From Rhodopirellula baltica SH 1 (GTDB lineage Bacteria > Planctomycetota > Planctomycetia > Pirellulales > Pirellulaceae), in NCBI RefSeq assembly GCF_000196115.1, contig NC_005027.1, positions 4,526,001 through 4,590,000 of the forward strand: 64,000 nt of DNA, given 5' to 3'. The notes beneath the pieces were generated by a model. It saw nothing but the letters and a program-made list of their open reading frames with translations, was not told the origin of the DNA and made no database searches. Positions 24,911 to 33,942 of the stretch are shown piece after piece (position 1 is the first letter of the stretch; each line of letters begins with the position of its first letter). The position numbers and the translations under genes are program-made.

Positions 24911-26125
24911 TCAAGCCGGATCGTAAGCTTCGCTGCCTAGTCCCCTGCCCCGTGGCATGTACGCGCACATCACGATGCCGAGGAAGTACAGGAATAACAG
25001 CGGAACTGCCAGAGCCACCATGCTAGTCACGTCGGCCGGTGTGACAATCATCGATATGACGAAGATTACCAACACCGCGACTCGCCAACTGTTGATGTAG
25101 TCCTGCGTTTGAATCAAATCAATGCGTTGCAGGAACAGCATCACCAATGGCAATTGGAAGGCGACGCCGAATCCCAATGGCAACATCAACACAAAGTTGA
25201 CGTAATAGGTCAGCCGAGGCTCCACCGCGACGTCCATCGATCCATTGAATTGCAACAAGAACGTCAGCACGTAGTGCAGCACCAACCCAAACGCGAGCAC
25301 GACGCCCGAGACAAACAGCACCACGCTGAACGGTAGGTAAACGTAGACATAACGTCGTTCGTGACTATGCAAACCAGCGGCCACAAACGACCACAGGTGA
25401 TAGAAGATCATGGGGGAGGCAAGCACCGCGCCAACAATCAAACCCGCTTTCACCCAAATCATGAACGGCTCTTCGATCTTCAATGAACTCAGCCCGCGTT
25501 CACTGCGACGGAGCTGAATCATGGGCACCAATTCATCGGGGTTGGGGATCGTCCCCATCGATTTCATCAATTCCGCGGTGGTGATCCTCTCTGGAATGTC
25601 CAGCGCAGCCGACTCGCCTGCTTCGGCTTCGACATCGGGACTGTTCTTTTCATCCGGTTCAGATTCGACGGCCGTGCCAGTGGCCTCCGGCGGTTCCACC
25701 ATGTCTCCGGTCGCCACTGGGACGCTCCCCGATGGCAGCGTGTACACCACGTCCGCGACCAGAGAATTGGACGTCAAGAATTCGTAGAACCGACTGACCT
25801 GCGGATCTTCCTTGCGGTCGGGTAGCCCCATCTCTTTCAGGTCGCGATCGGCGTTGTATTCGATGATCGCCTGTTTGAGCGGCTCCTGGATGAATCGCAC
25901 CACTCGGTTGGCGAACATCAATCCAACCGCCAATCCGATCAACAACCAAATGATTGCTTTGACCAGAGAGCCACGGAGTTCTTCGAGATGCTCCCCGAAC
26001 GTCATCGTCGAATTGTCGAACAAATCGTCTTTGGGTCGCGTCAGTGCTTCCACGAGTTTCAATCCACCAGGGGAGGGAGGGTACCATTGTGCTGAACTAC
26101 TCTGCACCGAACTACTCGATGCCAA
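24911..26125 (-). CDS. tatC: twin-arginine translocase subunit TatC with enlarged first periplasmic loop
   Basis: The receptor subunit of the Tat pathway, exporting folded proteins with RR signal peptides. The 404-residue protein is about 150 longer than usual. The conserved N-terminal GEHLEELRGSLVKAIIW leads into the first membrane helix (about 55-75), then a hydrophilic stretch of about 120 residues rich in Glu, Pro, Ser and Ala (about 93-215). The standard core resumes with EEPFMIWVKAGLIVGAVLAS, HERRYVYVYLPFS and the later helices. The essential first-loop Glu region and HERR are kept, so it should function. Confidence 0.9.
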   Translation of the reverse strand: MASSSSVQSSSAQWYPPSPGGLKLVEALTRPKDDLFDNSTMTFGEHLEELRGSLVKAIIWLLIGLAVGLMFANRVVRFIQEPLKQAIIEYNADRDLKEMGLPDRKEDPQVSRFYEFLTSNSLVADVVYTLPSGSVPVATGDMVEPPEATGTAVESEPDEKNSPDVEAEAGESAALDIPERITTAELMKSMGTIPNPDELVPMIQLRRSERGLSSLKIEEPFMIWVKAGLIVGAVLASPMIFYHLWSFVAAGLHSHERRYVYVYLPFSVVLFVSGVVLAFGLVLHYVLTFLLQFNGSMDVAVEPRLTYYVNFVLMLPLGFGVAFQLPLVMLFLQRIDLIQTQDYINSWRVAVLVIFVISMIVTPADVTSMVALAVPLLFLYFLGIVMCAYMPRGRGLGSEAYDPA

Positions 26126-28261: not shown

Positions 28262-28768
28262 TTGGCTGACACTCCCTCTCCCGATCCCGCGCCGACCGTC
28301 AACGCACCACCGGTCTCGCCACCCGGCCAAGCGCTGTCGATGGACGAAGTGACCGTGCGGCAATCCACCCCGCTAGACGCCCAGGCCATTCACGCTTTGA
28401 TGCGTCCGTTTGTTTCGCAGCATCTGCTGCTGTCGCGGACCGAAGCCGAAATCATCGAGTTGACCCGCCACGGGTTCGTCGCGATGGTCGGTCCACGCTG
28501 CATCGGCTTTTCCGCCATCGAGGTCTACAGTCCCAAGCTGGCCGAACTGCAATGCTTGGCCGTGCACCCCGAAGCCCAACGTTTGGGACTGGGACGCAAA
28601 TTGGTCGGGCACTGCATCGAAAGAGCCCGCACGCTCGGTGTGATGGAAATCCTCGCGATCAGCTCCTCCGAAGACTTCCTCAAATCATGCGGCTTCGATT
28701 ACTCGTTGCCCGACCAGAAGAAAGCCTTGTTCTGCCAACTCCGTCCTCGCAACTTCGATGACCACTGA
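28262..28768 (+). CDS. GNAT-family N-acetyltransferase
   Basis: A 168-residue acetyltransferase. The acetyl-CoA site is LQCLAVHPEAQRLGLGRKLV (R/Q-x-x-G-x-G/A type), followed by GHCIERARTLGVMEILAIS. The overall plan, with SEDFLKSCGFDYS near the end, resembles the acetylating domain of N-acetylglutamate synthase, so a role in arginine synthesis is possible but not shown. The frame starts at TTG (28262); an ATG at 28340 would remove a Pro-rich N-terminal 26 residues. It overlaps the M42 gene by 11 bases. Confidence 0.85.
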   Translation: MADTPSPDPAPTVNAPPVSPPGQALSMDEVTVRQSTPLDAQAIHALMRPFVSQHLLLSRTEAEIIELTRHGFVAMVGPRCIGFSAIEVYSPKLAELQCLAVHPEAQRLGLGRKLVGHCIERARTLGVMEILAISSSEDFLKSCGFDYSLPDQKKALFCQLRPRNFDDH

Positions 28769-29831
28769 AATGCAACCGCTCGAATTTTTCAAGCAATCCA
28801 TTCTGACGCCCAGCCCTTCGGGTTACGAAGAACCGATCCAAAAACTGATCGGCGAATACCTGAAACCGCACAGCGACGAAGTCTCGATCGACGTGCACGG
28901 AAACCTGACCGCTCGGGTCGGCGAAGCGGGTGGCCCCAAGCTGATGTTGGCTGGTCACTGTGACCAAATCGGCATGCTGATTTCACACATCGACGATCAA
29001 GGATTCTTGTACGCCCAAACGATCGGGGGTTGGGACCCACAGCAACTGATCGGTCAATCCATGACGGTGTGGACCGACGACGGTCCCGTCTCCGCGGTCA
29101 TCAGTCGCAAGCCAATTCACTTGTTGTCTCAACAGGAACGCGGCGAGGTCGTCAAGCTGGAACAAATGTGGCTGGACATCGGAGCCAAAGATGGTGACGA
29201 AGCCAAATCAAAAGTCCGCATCGGCGACTGCGTGACGTTGAACCTTGCCTACCGAGAACTGCTGGGCGACATGGTCAGCGGTCCGGGCATGGATAACAAA
29301 ACGGGCATGTGGACGGTCATTGAAACCGCCCGTCGCTGTGCCTCGTCCGATCAAGCGTTGCAGTGCGAACTGCACAGCGTCGCGACTGTCCAAGAGGAGA
29401 TCGGTCTGCGTGGAGCCAAGACCGCTGCCGGTCGCATCAACCCAGATGTGGCCATCGCGGTGGATGTCACGCATGCATCAGACTGCCCGACGATCGACAA
29501 ACAACAACAAGGCGATATCAAGATCGGTGGCGGCCCGGTGATCTTCCGCGGCCCCAACATCAACGCCAAAGTCGCAAAGCGACTGATGCAATTGGCGGAC
29601 GACAACGACATCGCGTATCAACCTGCGGCGCTCGGCCGCGCCGCGCCGAATGATTCCAACGTGTTGCAGGTTTCTGGTTCAGGCGTTGCCACAGGACTTG
29701 TCGCGATTCCCAACCGCTACATGCACTCAGCCGTCGAAACGATCAGCCTCGGTGACATCGAAGCGATTGCGAAACTGCTGACGCTGTTCGCTCAATCGCT
29801 GACACCAGAATGCGATTTCATCCCCGGTTGA
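28758..29831 (+). CDS. M42-family metallo-aminopeptidase
   Basis: A 357-residue zinc aminopeptidase of the M42 (glutamyl aminopeptidase/cellulase M) family. Metal and catalytic motifs are LAGHCDQIGMLISHIDD, GPGMDNKTGMWTVIE, and VQEEIGLRGAKTAAG, with RYMHSAVETISLGDIEAIA near the end supplying the last ligand. Family members form dodecameric tetrahedral particles that trim peptides in the cytoplasm. Start MTTEMQPLEFF overlaps the end of the GNAT gene by 11 bases, so the two are likely co-translated. Confidence 0.93.
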   Translation: MTTEMQPLEFFKQSILTPSPSGYEEPIQKLIGEYLKPHSDEVSIDVHGNLTARVGEAGGPKLMLAGHCDQIGMLISHIDDQGFLYAQTIGGWDPQQLIGQSMTVWTDDGPVSAVISRKPIHLLSQQERGEVVKLEQMWLDIGAKDGDEAKSKVRIGDCVTLNLAYRELLGDMVSGPGMDNKTGMWTVIETARRCASSDQALQCELHSVATVQEEIGLRGAKTAAGRINPDVAIAVDVTHASDCPTIDKQQQGDIKIGGGPVIFRGPNINAKVAKRLMQLADDNDIAYQPAALGRAAPNDSNVLQVSGSGVATGLVAIPNRYMHSAVETISLGDIEAIAKLLTLFAQSLTPECDFIPG

Positions 29832-30000: not shown

Positions 30001-31038
30001 CTAATTCGGGAACGGCCTCAATCCAAGAAGCATCTCGGCTCTCTCGGACAGCGGTTTGTTTGCCAGCTCACAATCGGTGTGCTCAGAAAGTTGTTCACAA
30101 ACAAGCCTGTAGACCGCTTGCCGATCCTGGCTGGTGTCCAGTTCAACGCACCGATTCTGGCTTTTGAAGAACTCGACGGTCGGCAACGTTTCCTTTTTGA
30201 AGGTATCAAACCGCGACTTCAAGCTCACCAAGTTGTCGTCTTGTCGTCCGGTGTACTTGGCTCGAGCCAGAACGCGTTTCTCCAGAACGTCATACGGACA
30301 TTCAAAGAACAGCATCTTGGGCAACTCGGTGTCTTTGCCAAACACGTCGTACCACGCTTCCAAGTTTGACTCCGACCGTGGGAACCCATCGAGCAAGAAA
30401 TTCCGGTTGCCGGTTTCGCGAGTGATCTTCTCCATCGCATCCCGAAGCAACTTCACCACGATCGTACTGGGAACTAAATTTCCTGCCGCAATGATCTCTT
30501 CAATGGCCGCCGCGTGCGGTCCATTGGCTTCGCGTTCAGCTCGCAATAAATCGCCGGTCGACAAATGGACCCAGCCCAGTTGGGATTCGGCCAACTCGCA
30601 CATCGTTCCCTTCCCCGCACCGGGACCGCCAAGCACAAACACCACGTTGGGTTCGGGGCATGGCAATCGTGGATCGGAGTGATGAATCACAACCTTGGGT
30701 GAAGGAGCCACGCCTTTCTTGTAGACATGCCAACGTCGATCCGTGGGAGGAAGCTCGTCTTCGCAGGTGATGTCATAAGCGAGATGGCCATCCAGCCGAC
30801 AAATCCTCCATGAGCGATACGTATTGGAATACGACAGCGCAGGACTTCTCGCTGATTTCCCATCCGCACGATCCCAAGCCATCTTGCCGTTCCAATAACC
30901 TGGACTGGAAACGGTGCCCGATTCCGACTCCGCAGGCGGCGCAGTAGAGGGAACAAAGAGCCCATCCACTTCGGGAAGTCCCGCACCGATCACCTCGATG
31001 TAGAAGGTATTGGGAGTCAGCTCGTTCGATTCAGTCAT
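30001..31038 (-). CDS. eukaryote-type UMP-CMP/adenylate kinase with extra N-terminal domain
   Basis: A 345-residue two-domain protein. The C-terminal part (about 128-320) is a nucleoside monophosphate kinase: VVFVLGGPGAGKGTMCELA (P-loop 137-145), HLSTGDLLRAERE, IVPST-like NLVPSTIVVKLLRDAM, FLLDGFPRSESNLEAW and GRQDDNLVSLKSRFDTF. The short lid and the NLEAW motif resemble eukaryotic UMP-CMP kinases more than bacterial Adk or Cmk. Residues about 11-115 form an extra domain (TFYIEVIGAGLPEVDGLFVP, SRRW-type Trp motifs SWRICRLDGHLAYDI and RRWHVYKKGV) that I cannot assign. It probably phosphorylates UMP or CMP; the extra domain may bind a partner. Confidence 0.85.
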   Translation of the reverse strand: MTESNELTPNTFYIEVIGAGLPEVDGLFVPSTAPPAESESGTVSSPGYWNGKMAWDRADGKSARSPALSYSNTYRSWRICRLDGHLAYDITCEDELPPTDRRWHVYKKGVAPSPKVVIHHSDPRLPCPEPNVVFVLGGPGAGKGTMCELAESQLGWVHLSTGDLLRAEREANGPHAAAIEEIIAAGNLVPSTIVVKLLRDAMEKITRETGNRNFLLDGFPRSESNLEAWYDVFGKDTELPKMLFFECPYDVLEKRVLARAKYTGRQDDNLVSLKSRFDTFKKETLPTVEFFKSQNRCVELDTSQDRQAVYRLVCEQLSEHTDCELANKPLSERAEMLLGLRPFPN

Positions 31039-31104: not shown

Positions 31105-33942
31105 TCAGCCCAGCTTTTCGGTCATCGTTTCGCGAGCTTGCTGGAGTGCTTCAGGCAACTTGCTGGCGTCTTTGCCGCCGGCTTGAGCCATATCCGGCCG
31201 GCCACCGCCGCTGCCACCGACCACCTTGGCCGCCGCACCGACCCAGTCACCGGCTTTCAAACCACGATCAACCAGATCTCGGCTCAGTCCACCGACCAAC
31301 ATGACTTTGTCGTTCATCGACGAAGCCAACAGCACTGCGGTTGGCGTGTCGCTCTTCTTGCGAATTTGATCGATCCAACCTCGCATGATGTTGGGGTTGG
31401 CACCGGGCGTTTCAGCAACGATCAGCAACGTGTCGCCGACCTTGGTTCCATCTGCGATCAAGTCATCCGCGGAAATCTTACCGCCCGCGGTCACCTGTTT
31501 GAGTTGCTCGACCAGCTTCGATCGATCGGCCAACAGCGAATCCAAGCGACTGAGCACATCGGTGATCGCAACGTTCAAACGGCGAGTCAAACCGCGAACC
31601 GCCGCACGCACGGCGTTGTAATCGCTGATGTCGGTCGTTTCCGCTTTCGCAGCCTTGGCATCAAAGACAAATTCAGCGGGATAGTCCGCAGCTTTGCCTG
31701 ACGACAATTCTTTCTTCAGCCGGCGAACTTCTTCGATCAACGCCACCGTGGCCGCAGCAGCCACCGAAGCATCGCAATTCAGTTTGCCTGCCACCTCGTT
31801 CAGCAACGCTTGCGTTTGCTCGCGGTGTTCTTTGGCACGCTCGCCCGTCAATGCTTCGATCCGGCGAGTTCCCGTGGAAACGCTTTCTTCGACCACGACC
31901 TCAAACGAACCGACTTGTTTGGTGTTGGTCAGGTGAGTTCCACCGCACAGTTCACGACTGAACGTTCCCATCGAAACCATGCGACATGGGTCGGGATACT
32001 TTTCACCAAACAACATCATCGCGCCGGCTTCACGAGCATCGGCGAGCGACACGGTGTCCCAGCGAATTTCATCGCCTTTGCCGACCATGCCAAGCACGTC
32101 TTGTTCGATCTTGACCAACGTCTCGTCGTCGATGGCTTTGGGGTTGGTGAAATCAAACCGCAAGCGATCCGGTTCAACCTTGCTGCCTTGTTGTTCGGCG
32201 TGCCGTCCAACATGAGTGTGTAATGCGTGGTGCAAAATGTGAGTCGCACTATGGGCTCGTGCCAACGCCGTGCGGTTTTCGACATCAACCTTTGCCGTGC
32301 ATGTTTCGCCTTCGTTGATCTTCCCACGAATCAATCGACCGTGATGAACGATCATCGACGCGTGCCGCTGAGTGTCGATGACCTCGAACTCAAAGTTGTC
32401 GTTGGAAATCACACCGATGTCGCCAACTTGGCCACCGGATTCACCGTAGAACGGCGAATGATCCAGAACCAATCGCAGGACAGCATCTTCGGGGCGATCA
32501 AGATGACTGAGCAGTTGCCCGTCGTCGCCTTTGCCTTTGCCATCGCCGGTGATGATGCCTTTGACGACCGCGGTGGCTTCCGTTTGTTCGTAACCAACAA
32601 ATGGGGTTTCTCGCAGAGCCTCTTTCAACGTTTCCAGTGGTCCAGTTTGGAACAGCACACGTTGTCCGCCGTCGCTTTCGTCAGCGTGTTTGTCCATCGC
32701 TTCCCGAAAACCAGACCAATCGAAGGTGAAGTTCTGTTCGGCGGCGAGGGTTTGAACCAACTCGGGCGGCACGCCATAGGTGGTCAGCAAATCAGCGGCT
32801 TCTGCACCGGGCACCATCACGGATGCTTCGTCGTTCATCTCTTCGAACAAACGATGGATGCGTTTCATCCCACCGTCGATCGTTGAGAAGAAAGCCTTCT
32901 CTTCCGATTCAATCGCTTCGCTGACACGCTGAGTCGTTTGGCCGAGCTCTGGATAAGCGGCCTTGGAGGCGTCCGCAACTGCTTCGACCAACTTGTACAG
33001 GAAGGGCTCACGCAGATTCATTTGATAGCCGTCCAGCACCGCGCGACGAATCAAACGGCGGATGACCGACCGAGCGTCTTTGGGGCCGGGATACACATTT
33101 TCATGAACCGCGAAAACGCTGGCTCGCGCGTGGTCGGTGATCCGGCGCAAGCGTCGGCCATTGTCACTTTCGTATTCGTACTTCACGCCGCAGACTTCCG
33201 ACGCGGCTTCGACGATCGGGAACAGACTGTCGATGTGGAAGTTCGTTGGCACTCCCTGCAGGACGCTGGCGGTTCGTTCCAGTCCCATGCCGGTGTCGAT
33301 GTTCTTGCTGGGCAACGGATGCAAGTTGTCCGGGGGCGTGCCGACGCGATTGAACTGGGTGAACACCAAGTTCCAAATTTCGACGTCGCTGCCGTCTTCC
33401 AGTTGGTAATAGATCTCGCTGCAGGGACCGCAGACTCCGTCCGGGCCTTCGCTGGGTGCCGACGCGGGCCAGAAGTTTTCGTCCTCGTCCATTCGCGAAA
33501 TGCGTTGGGTCGGCAATCCGATCTTGTCGTGCCAAATGCCAAACGCTTCGTCGTCATCTTTGTAGACCGTGACCGTCAGACGCTCGCCGGGGATGCCCAG
33601 CCACTTTTTGTCGGTCAGGAATTCCCACGCCCAGTGGATGGCTTCTTCTTTGAAATAATCGCCGAACGAAAAGTTGCCCAGCATTTCGAAGAACGTGTGG
33701 TGGAACGCGGTCCGGCCCACATTGTCGATGTCACCGGTTCGCAAGCATTTCTGGCACGTGGTCGCGCGAGTGAAATCCAGTTTGACCTTTCCAAGGAAGT
33801 GGTCTTTGAACTGGTTCATCCCCGCGGGAGTGAACAAAACCGATGGATCCCAAGCCGGAACGAGCACGTCGCTGGGTTGGCGGACGCAACCTTTGGTCTC
33901 AAAGAACGCCAAGTATTTTTCGCGCAGTTCGTCAGTTTTCAT
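31105..33942 (-). CDS. alaS: alanyl-tRNA synthetase
   Basis: A 945-residue enzyme charging tRNA-Ala. The class II catalytic core begins MKTDELREKYLAFFETKG and includes TFFEMLGNFSFGDYFKEEAI and GMGLERTASVLQGV. The editing domain has HSATHILHHALHTHVG and CGGTHLTNTKQVGSFEV, the zinc-binding residues that hydrolyse Ser/Gly mischarging. The C-Ala domain ends GGGRPDMAQAGGKDASKLP. At 945 residues it is longer than the typical 875. The start ATG at 33942 has no competing upstream in-frame start that fits the family. Confidence 0.97.
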   Translation of the reverse strand: MKTDELREKYLAFFETKGCVRQPSDVLVPAWDPSVLFTPAGMNQFKDHFLGKVKLDFTRATTCQKCLRTGDIDNVGRTAFHHTFFEMLGNFSFGDYFKEEAIHWAWEFLTDKKWLGIPGERLTVTVYKDDDEAFGIWHDKIGLPTQRISRMDEDENFWPASAPSEGPDGVCGPCSEIYYQLEDGSDVEIWNLVFTQFNRVGTPPDNLHPLPSKNIDTGMGLERTASVLQGVPTNFHIDSLFPIVEAASEVCGVKYEYESDNGRRLRRITDHARASVFAVHENVYPGPKDARSVIRRLIRRAVLDGYQMNLREPFLYKLVEAVADASKAAYPELGQTTQRVSEAIESEEKAFFSTIDGGMKRIHRLFEEMNDEASVMVPGAEAADLLTTYGVPPELVQTLAAEQNFTFDWSGFREAMDKHADESDGGQRVLFQTGPLETLKEALRETPFVGYEQTEATAVVKGIITGDGKGKGDDGQLLSHLDRPEDAVLRLVLDHSPFYGESGGQVGDIGVISNDNFEFEVIDTQRHASMIVHHGRLIRGKINEGETCTAKVDVENRTALARAHSATHILHHALHTHVGRHAEQQGSKVEPDRLRFDFTNPKAIDDETLVKIEQDVLGMVGKGDEIRWDTVSLADAREAGAMMLFGEKYPDPCRMVSMGTFSRELCGGTHLTNTKQVGSFEVVVEESVSTGTRRIEALTGERAKEHREQTQALLNEVAGKLNCDASVAAAATVALIEEVRRLKKELSSGKAADYPAEFVFDAKAAKAETTDISDYNAVRAAVRGLTRRLNVAITDVLSRLDSLLADRSKLVEQLKQVTAGGKISADDLIADGTKVGDTLLIVAETPGANPNIMRGWIDQIRKKSDTPTAVLLASSMNDKVMLVGGLSRDLVDRGLKAGDWVGAAAKVVGGSGGGRPDMAQAGGKDASKLPEALQQARETMTEKLG

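Follow-up and report, generated by a model that had tools for sequence, protein, structure and literature searches.

The window, a stretch of 64,000 nucleotides from Rhodopirellula baltica SH 1 (contig NC_005027.1, positions 4,526,001 to 4,590,000), carries a gene in which a nucleoside monophosphate (NMP) kinase is preceded by an N-terminal module (Table 1). The original prediction, made from the sequence, had described an open reading frame (ORF) with a P-loop at residues 137-145 together with FLLDGFPRSESNLEAW, GRQDDNLVSLKSRF, SWRICRLDGHLAYDI and RRWHVYKKGV, all of which we confirmed in the 345-residue protein. Pfam ADK covers residues 135-295 (E 2e-36), residues 1-125 gave zero matches to Pfam models up to E 10, and a linker reaching to about residue 130 joins the N-terminal domain (about residues 10-118) to the kinase. 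Retrieval by exact peptide patterns from both parts of the protein yielded 133 relatives; given such patterns, very divergent members were missed. The best 80 of the 133 are 70-93% identical and nearly all full-length, the nearest among them being that of R. europaea (93%). Comparison of the R. europaea gene with the window gene gave a dN of 0.042 and a dS of 0.805; these values, together with the 133 relatives, indicate that the ORF did not arise by chance.

Table 1. Features of the kinase gene and its neighbours, in window coordinates
Feature	Coordinates	Strand	Remarks and basis
Whole gene, NMP kinase with N-terminal module	30001..31038	-	ATG start, 345 aa
N-terminal module, residues 10-118	30685..31011	-	Conservation, kinship to IMG/VR module, AF2 model
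Kinase domain, eukaryotic UMP-CMP type, residues 130-318	30085..30651	-	Pfam, NCBIfam, PDB, Foldseek, tree
P-loop GGPGAGKGT, residues 137-145	30604..30630	-	Sequence, conservation
Asn225, NMP-base specificity position	30364..30366	-	Residue comparison; role as in the enzyme family
C-terminal tail, residues 319-345, with segment PL(S/T)E(R/K)xExLLGLRP	30004..30084	-	Conservation
alaS (alanyl-tRNA synthetase), upstream neighbour, 66-base gap	31105..33942	-	Named by sequence recognition
M42-type aminopeptidase gene, convergent neighbour	28758..29831	+	Named by sequence recognition

The position of the gene between alaS and the M42-type peptidase gene is shared by R. europaea, and neither neighbour was found at the other 79 loci, of which up to 4,000 bases on each side were inspected. 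The M42 gene has a match in 35 of 41 family genomes, and among 20 loci around it, that of the window genome included, alaS is seen, within the DNA examined, only at the window's own locus. Across 81 loci (window included) the largest clusters of neighbours join 12, 8 and 7 loci at varying distances and orientations; by eye, the recurring clusters resemble large planctomycete and verrucomicrobial families. Within Pseudomonadota, Usp and Cfa genes lie upstream of the kinase gene in a Marinobacter bin (L066), a NUDIX gene lies downstream of it in M. zhanjiangensis (L054), and a UvrD-type helicase gene adjoins it at L062, L073 and L078 (Pfam scan for L073 only). A copy borne by a Comamonas plasmid shares its replicon with Usp, a TraR/DksA-type protein, Cfa, RF3, a diguanylate cyclase and NUDIX. 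These loosely recurring neighbours of stress type in Pseudomonadota hint at a part in stress survival. Upstream of the M. zhanjiangensis kinase gene we also observed a gene resembling a recombination directionality factor (L054:2615-3526, plus strand; PF18897), a hint of a mobile element at that locus. Elsewhere in the window, a TatC-like ORF (24911-26125, minus strand) has, by eye, a long acidic insert between its first membrane segments.

To place the kinase we compared it with NCBIfam models, structures and reference sequences. Among the NCBIfam models listed, UMP_CMP_kin_fam (TIGR01359) ranked first with 187.3 bits, followed by the eukaryotic AK1 model (145.3 bits), with any other adk model at 127.7 bits or below; every model listed, adk models included, scored the kinase below its cut-off. 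Since the curated cut-off of TIGR01359 is 207.6 bits, the kinase is not filed under that family; despite this, its sequence predicts that the protein works like a UMP-CMP kinase. The best PDB sequence matches were the UMP-CMP kinases of Dictyostelium, yeast and human, and the best Foldseek matches of the predicted model were the UMP kinases of yeast and Dictyostelium. Fold searches of PDB and BFVD with the full model returned kinases and other P-loop proteins (best 50 each). With the eukaryotic UMP-CMP kinases (TIGR01359; PDB 1qf9, 1uky, 1tev) the protein shares the fold, the GGPG P-loop, a Cys following the (D/E) in the FF(D/E)C strand, GRxDDN without a long LID insert and the Asn/Trp NMP site of the human and Dictyostelium enzymes. 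Unlike them, it has conserved additions at both ends, a 125-residue module at the N-terminus and a tail at the C-terminus.

The residues at the NMP site are uniform within the family. An Asn at R+4 and a Trp at R+8 of DGFPR were read in 79 of 80 members, the remaining one being unread by the pattern. The same pair is present in the human and Dictyostelium enzymes, Gln and Phe take these places in the yeast enzyme, pig AK1 and Schistosoma AK, and Gln stands at R+4 in 29 of 29 bacterial rows. We take an Asn at this position (Asn225 here) to select pyrimidines in UMP-CMP kinases. In 44 aligned members the P-loop Lys, Arg166, Asp217, Arg221, Arg259, Arg265, Asp267, Asp268 and Arg276 are invariant.

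We built a 49-row tree from 15 family members, chosen from the 80 rows, and from eukaryotic and bacterial references (three eukaryotic UMP-CMP kinases, two eukaryotic AKs, 28 planctomycete Adk-like proteins and one short E. coli Adk). It unites the family with the three eukaryotic UMP-CMP kinases (support 99/95), seats it with human and Dictyostelium beyond yeast (89/82) and keeps the 29 bacterial rows, 28 of them planctomycete, separate (98/92). On average the 15 members shared 0.42-0.43 of their residues with the three eukaryotic UMP-CMP kinases, 0.36-0.38 with the AKs and 0.29 with the bacterial rows. The kinase had been described as closer to the eukaryotic UMP-CMP kinases than to the Adk or Cmk of bacteria, and the NCBIfam ranking, the PDB matches, the tree and the diagnostic residues bear this out; in the free tree it does not group within bacterial Adk, with the reservation that the AU test rejects none of three rival placements. 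In the first, the eukaryotic UMP-CMP kinases group with the eukaryotic AKs to the exclusion of the family (p 0.334); in the second, they form a clade of their own (p 0.405); in the third, the family joins the AKs of eukaryotes instead (p 0.313). Two bacterial identities were considered and rejected. Bacterial adenylate kinase (TIGR01351 and the NF adk models) has the P-loop NMP kinase fold in common with our protein, which differs from it in its separate clade, its low identity, an Asn rather than a Gln at the base-specificity position, and scores under every adk cut-off listed. Bacterial Cmk (PF02224, TIGR00017) would be expected to share the reaction from CMP to CDP, but TIGR00017 gives the kinase 14.5 bits against a cut-off of 135.55, and a genuine cmk lies elsewhere in the genome.

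The R. baltica genome in fact encodes cmk (229.5 bits), pyrH (302.9 bits) and an adk of bacterial type, indicating that the UMP-CMP kinase gene is an extra one, which again sets it apart from its eukaryotic counterparts. A cmk above cut-off was found in 23 of 23 carrier genomes searched, 20 of them reached through 20 of the 80 related loci and three being among the eight carriers in a planctomycete sample described below. Also encoded in the R. baltica genome is a 441-residue protein (L003:1231-2556, plus strand) that matches ADK weakly (36.5 bits) and has a long, unassigned C-terminal part. The presence of both cmk and pyrH, which the original prediction had suggested looking for, fits horizontal acquisition of an extra enzyme and to that extent agrees with the proposed transfer from or to a eukaryote; on a tree that contains three eukaryotic UMP-CMP kinases and in which the AU test rejects no alternative, any direction and donor of such a transfer are tentative. 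Gene flow from eukaryotes to bacteria is seldom documented. The kinase could instead be an old bacterial side lineage, kin to the ancestor or donor of the eukaryotic UMP-CMP/AK1 group, its sparse spread being due to later transfer among bacteria. Such an origin draws on the placements outside the eukaryotic UMP-CMP kinases that the AU tests leave unrejected, on the long stem of the family (1.39 changes per column) and on the fact that we know of no eukaryotic carrier of the kinase-module fusion. We nevertheless regard it as rather doubtful, in view of the two supported groupings with eukaryotic enzymes, of the Asn and Trp common to the family, human and Dictyostelium, and of the distribution of TIGR01359 scores in 59 planctomycete genomes, where the family reached at least 188 bits (3 genomes) and no score fell between those and 144 bits. 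Among 14 control genomes none scored above the TIGR01359 cut-off, which the kinase family itself misses.

The N-terminal module is the most conserved part of the protein. Over the 80 rows mean pairwise identity is 0.825 in residues 10-118 versus 0.752 in residues 130-318, and columns conserved to at least 99% number 42 of 125 in residues 1-125 and 47 of 193 in residues 126-318. The module gave no Pfam or NCBIfam match above cut-off, its counterparts in other members touched an unrelated Pfam model in 4 of 26 cases (best E 0.13), and a PDB profile search returned zero matches. The structure prediction suggested earlier for this part was done in two forms. AF2 modelled the whole protein with confidence (pLDDT 87.3, pTM 0.83) and showed the domain as short strands with no helix; modelled alone, the domain reached a pLDDT of 54.3 (26 sequences versus 44 for the whole protein). 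The poor stand-alone model may mean that the domain leans on the kinase.

In the window genome the N-terminal domain occurs once; two other genomes carry it as a separate ORF as well. At L079 (4001-4381, plus strand) a 126-residue ORF consists of the domain alone, and a full-length copy of the gene starts 4 bases past its stop codon. Identity of this stand-alone domain reaches 89% with domains from other members and is 80% with that of the neighbouring copy; between these two, dN is 0.16 and dS is saturated, and on these grounds the stand-alone domain looks maintained. The pseudomonadotal genome G549 has a full copy and, separately, a 128-residue ORF of the module (L099:1501-1887, minus strand) ending within two residues of the same domain boundary; no kinase lies behind it in the DNA examined at that locus. 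Given that otherwise invariant sites are changed in it, this ORF may be decaying.

The pattern V.GAG.PE.NG.Y...PP..W...PAP of the N-terminal module may resemble a module of protist and algal proteins. Two patterns of a motif resembling the N-terminal domain, applied to the viral_contigs collection, retrieved 3 and 73 contigs, 74 in all. The motif was borne by 72 ORF hits, of which 50 ended recognisably; discarding near-copies and any sequence that bore the signature of another family left 39 for a profile. By eye, the contig module is apparently present in more than one copy in some of these IMG/VR contigs (L203, L237, L252 and L266 among L198-L271). The 39-sequence profile found the N-terminal domain in 80 of 80 family rows, in 59 of them at E <1e-3 (database size 25,000), and among controls it matched none of the 80 reversed proteins and a single one of 2,146 neighbouring ORFs, which proved to be a stand-alone copy of the domain. 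Because the contig sequences had been found by motifs resembling the N-terminal domain, we repeated the test with the motif stretch cut. With the motif removed on both sides, the 80 N-terminal domains took the 80 best scores (median 20.0, top 29.1 bits), the maxima of the controls being 8.9 bits (400 shuffles), 7.1 bits (2,145 other ORFs) and 3.5 bits (80 reversed domains); no score was reported for any of the 80 kinase parts. With 3 sequences hhalign gave a probability of 88.9%, which rose to 95.9% when 12 were used; once the motif had been removed it was 38.7% (E 3e-4). On the strength of these profile comparisons the N-terminal part can be placed as a divergent member of a nameless module in proteins of IMG/VR contigs. 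The earlier view that it cannot be placed holds insofar as it matches no named Pfam or NCBIfam domain, and gives way where the contig module is concerned.

The two versions of the module differ. The one linked to the kinase shows an additional conserved SESG...GYWN stretch and much less variation, and the contig version, unlike it, occurs in proteins that PHROGs leaves nameless: six host proteins gave no PHROGs name at E 0.1, and of two further ones, one gave a weak match that was itself nameless. Examples of the contig module had no match above cut-off in Pfam (6 tested) or NCBIfam (3 tested), and two single queries against phage records returned zero matches. A PDB profile search with the contig module returned 4 sequences, headed by SAKe6BE-L2, which we take to be a designed kelch-like protein, at E 2.7e-9 for the whole chain, the other three having E 2 or worse; the match is made up of six weak repeats, each of E 11 or worse alone, and may be a hint of a propeller-blade-like fold or a product of chance. 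Carriage of the gene by known viruses was considered and rejected, as viral_contigs held no relative of the whole protein, with the N-terminal domain alignment also finding no match there, and nine matches at E 1e-10 in 50,697 phage records were confined to the kinase part (residue 119 or later) at <60% identity.

Kinship to the contig module makes a binding or docking role of the N-terminal domain plausible. A further proposal is a regulatory or defence protein, in which a phage-type module would sense some ligand, such as a component of a virion or of a surface, and the kinase would shift nucleotide pools; this kinship, the sparse and solitary occurrence of the kinase gene and the separate module ORFs in two genomes are what it can call on. 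We consider it improbable, since PADLOC contains no match to the kinase protein up to E 1, by which a PADLOC defence protein was rejected, and since the module is conserved in a manner unlike that of an arms-race domain.

The family is widely and thinly distributed. The 80 rows comprise 79 loci and the window, partial locus L068 having been dropped. By NCBI rank they fall under Planctomycetota (38), Verrucomicrobiota (17), Pseudomonadota (13), Myxococcota (3) and six other phyla with one each, besides two rows without a phylum and the window, giving about ten phylum labels among these best 80 of the 133 relatives. Some labels may be wrong, given that 65 of 80 loci are metagenome bins by title; the other 15 all belong to Planctomycetota or Pseudomonadota. 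Doubtful cases are L082 and L084, near-copies under two phyla, and bin L085, whose kinase is 90% identical to a Halomonas protein and whose RpoB is 58% identical. In even samples the gene was carried by 8 of 392 genomes of Planctomycetota (window genome included, one match partial; whole-protein profile, E 1e-40) and, with an N-terminal domain profile at E 0.001, by 2 of 398 of Pseudomonadota, one being the seed, and 2 of 387 of Verrucomicrobiota, one being the seed and the other a broken copy. A frameshifted and truncated copy lies at L101:683-1878 (minus strand) of a verrucomicrobial genome. Within one Halomonas genus, 3 of 90 genomes carry the gene, two of them already among the known carriers. 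Of 72,556 plasmid records one carries it, the Comamonas plasmid mentioned above, which is typed non-mobilizable; its copy is 73% identical and lies about 1 kb from a site-specific integrase and about 3.5 kb from an IS3 transposase.

To relate the spread of the gene to that of core genes, we compared protein identities in 21 carriers (the window genome and 20 others), with Cmk available in all and RpoB in 19, one genome lacking a match and one having a split gene. Between phyla, identity was 0.75 for the kinase protein, 0.50 for RpoB and 0.38 for Cmk (158 pairs; RpoB 126), and 0.74, 0.49 and 0.37 without the doubtful bin (138 pairs). The corresponding values were 0.79, 0.89 and 0.68 within Planctomycetota (21 pairs), 0.88, 0.77 and 0.65 within Pseudomonadota (28 pairs; RpoB 21) and 0.81, 0.77 and 0.59 within Verrucomicrobiota (3 pairs). 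Between R. baltica and R. rubra, identity is 92% in RpoB and 76% in the kinase protein. The excess of the kinase protein over RpoB and Cmk between phyla argues for horizontal spread. The family tree mixes phyla, Planctomycetota requiring 10 label changes, 2 of them forced by starred branches, and the phylum labels are clustered relative to shuffles. The GC content of the gene tracks that of the flanking DNA (r 0.886, 77 loci), indicating that the transfers were not all recent. Together, the fusion gene appears to have moved between bacterial phyla as a single gene. Purely vertical descent from an ancestor common to these bacteria, which would call for massive loss in independent lines and for an unusually slow rate of change, agrees with the match in GC, the clustered labels with only two forced changes and the kinase value above RpoB within Pseudomonadota, but is strongly disfavoured, as identities below RpoB within Planctomycetota and above it between phyla are hard to reconcile with one steady rate and as the R. 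rubra comparison, the few carriers within one genus and the plasmid copy all stand against it.

We therefore favour, at a probability of about 0.6, a pyrimidine NMP kinase of the eukaryotic UMP-CMP lineage, probably derived from a eukaryote, fused to a binding or docking module and encoded by a dispensable single gene that has moved between phyla. The substrate, the eukaryotic donor, the binding role of the module, the dispensability and the benefit to the host are what we infer in the following scheme. A kinase gene would have been acquired, probably from a eukaryote or from a source derived from one, and would then have passed between bacterial phyla, single and dispensable, atop the resident Cmk, PyrH and Adk. 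The invariance of its catalytic residues leads us to propose a catalytically intact enzyme that would phosphorylate UMP and CMP, perhaps also dCMP, with ATP by the canonical mechanism. The small beta-rich module most likely serves in ligand binding or in docking onto the kinase, which it would thereby localise or regulate, and the host might gain a backup or a pyrimidine salvage for times of stress. A bolder version, which we offer tentatively and consider less probable, is that a eukaryotic kinase was captured and joined to a phage-type binding module, that the fusion is a solitary mobile gene across about ten phyla and that the module senses or docks a ligand and gates phosphorylation; to our knowledge no ligand-controlled nucleotide kinase of this kind has been described. 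In a limited collection of literature, available in part, we found no work on the gene, none pairing UMP-CMP kinase with Rhodopirellula or Marinobacter and none pairing nucleoside monophosphate kinase with planctomycet-. The family is unusual in that a core metabolic enzyme is spread by one gene, apparently a dispensable one, together with a nameless module that is better conserved than the enzyme, and this module, present in dozens of IMG/VR contigs and unmatched in Pfam and NCBIfam, merits a family entry.
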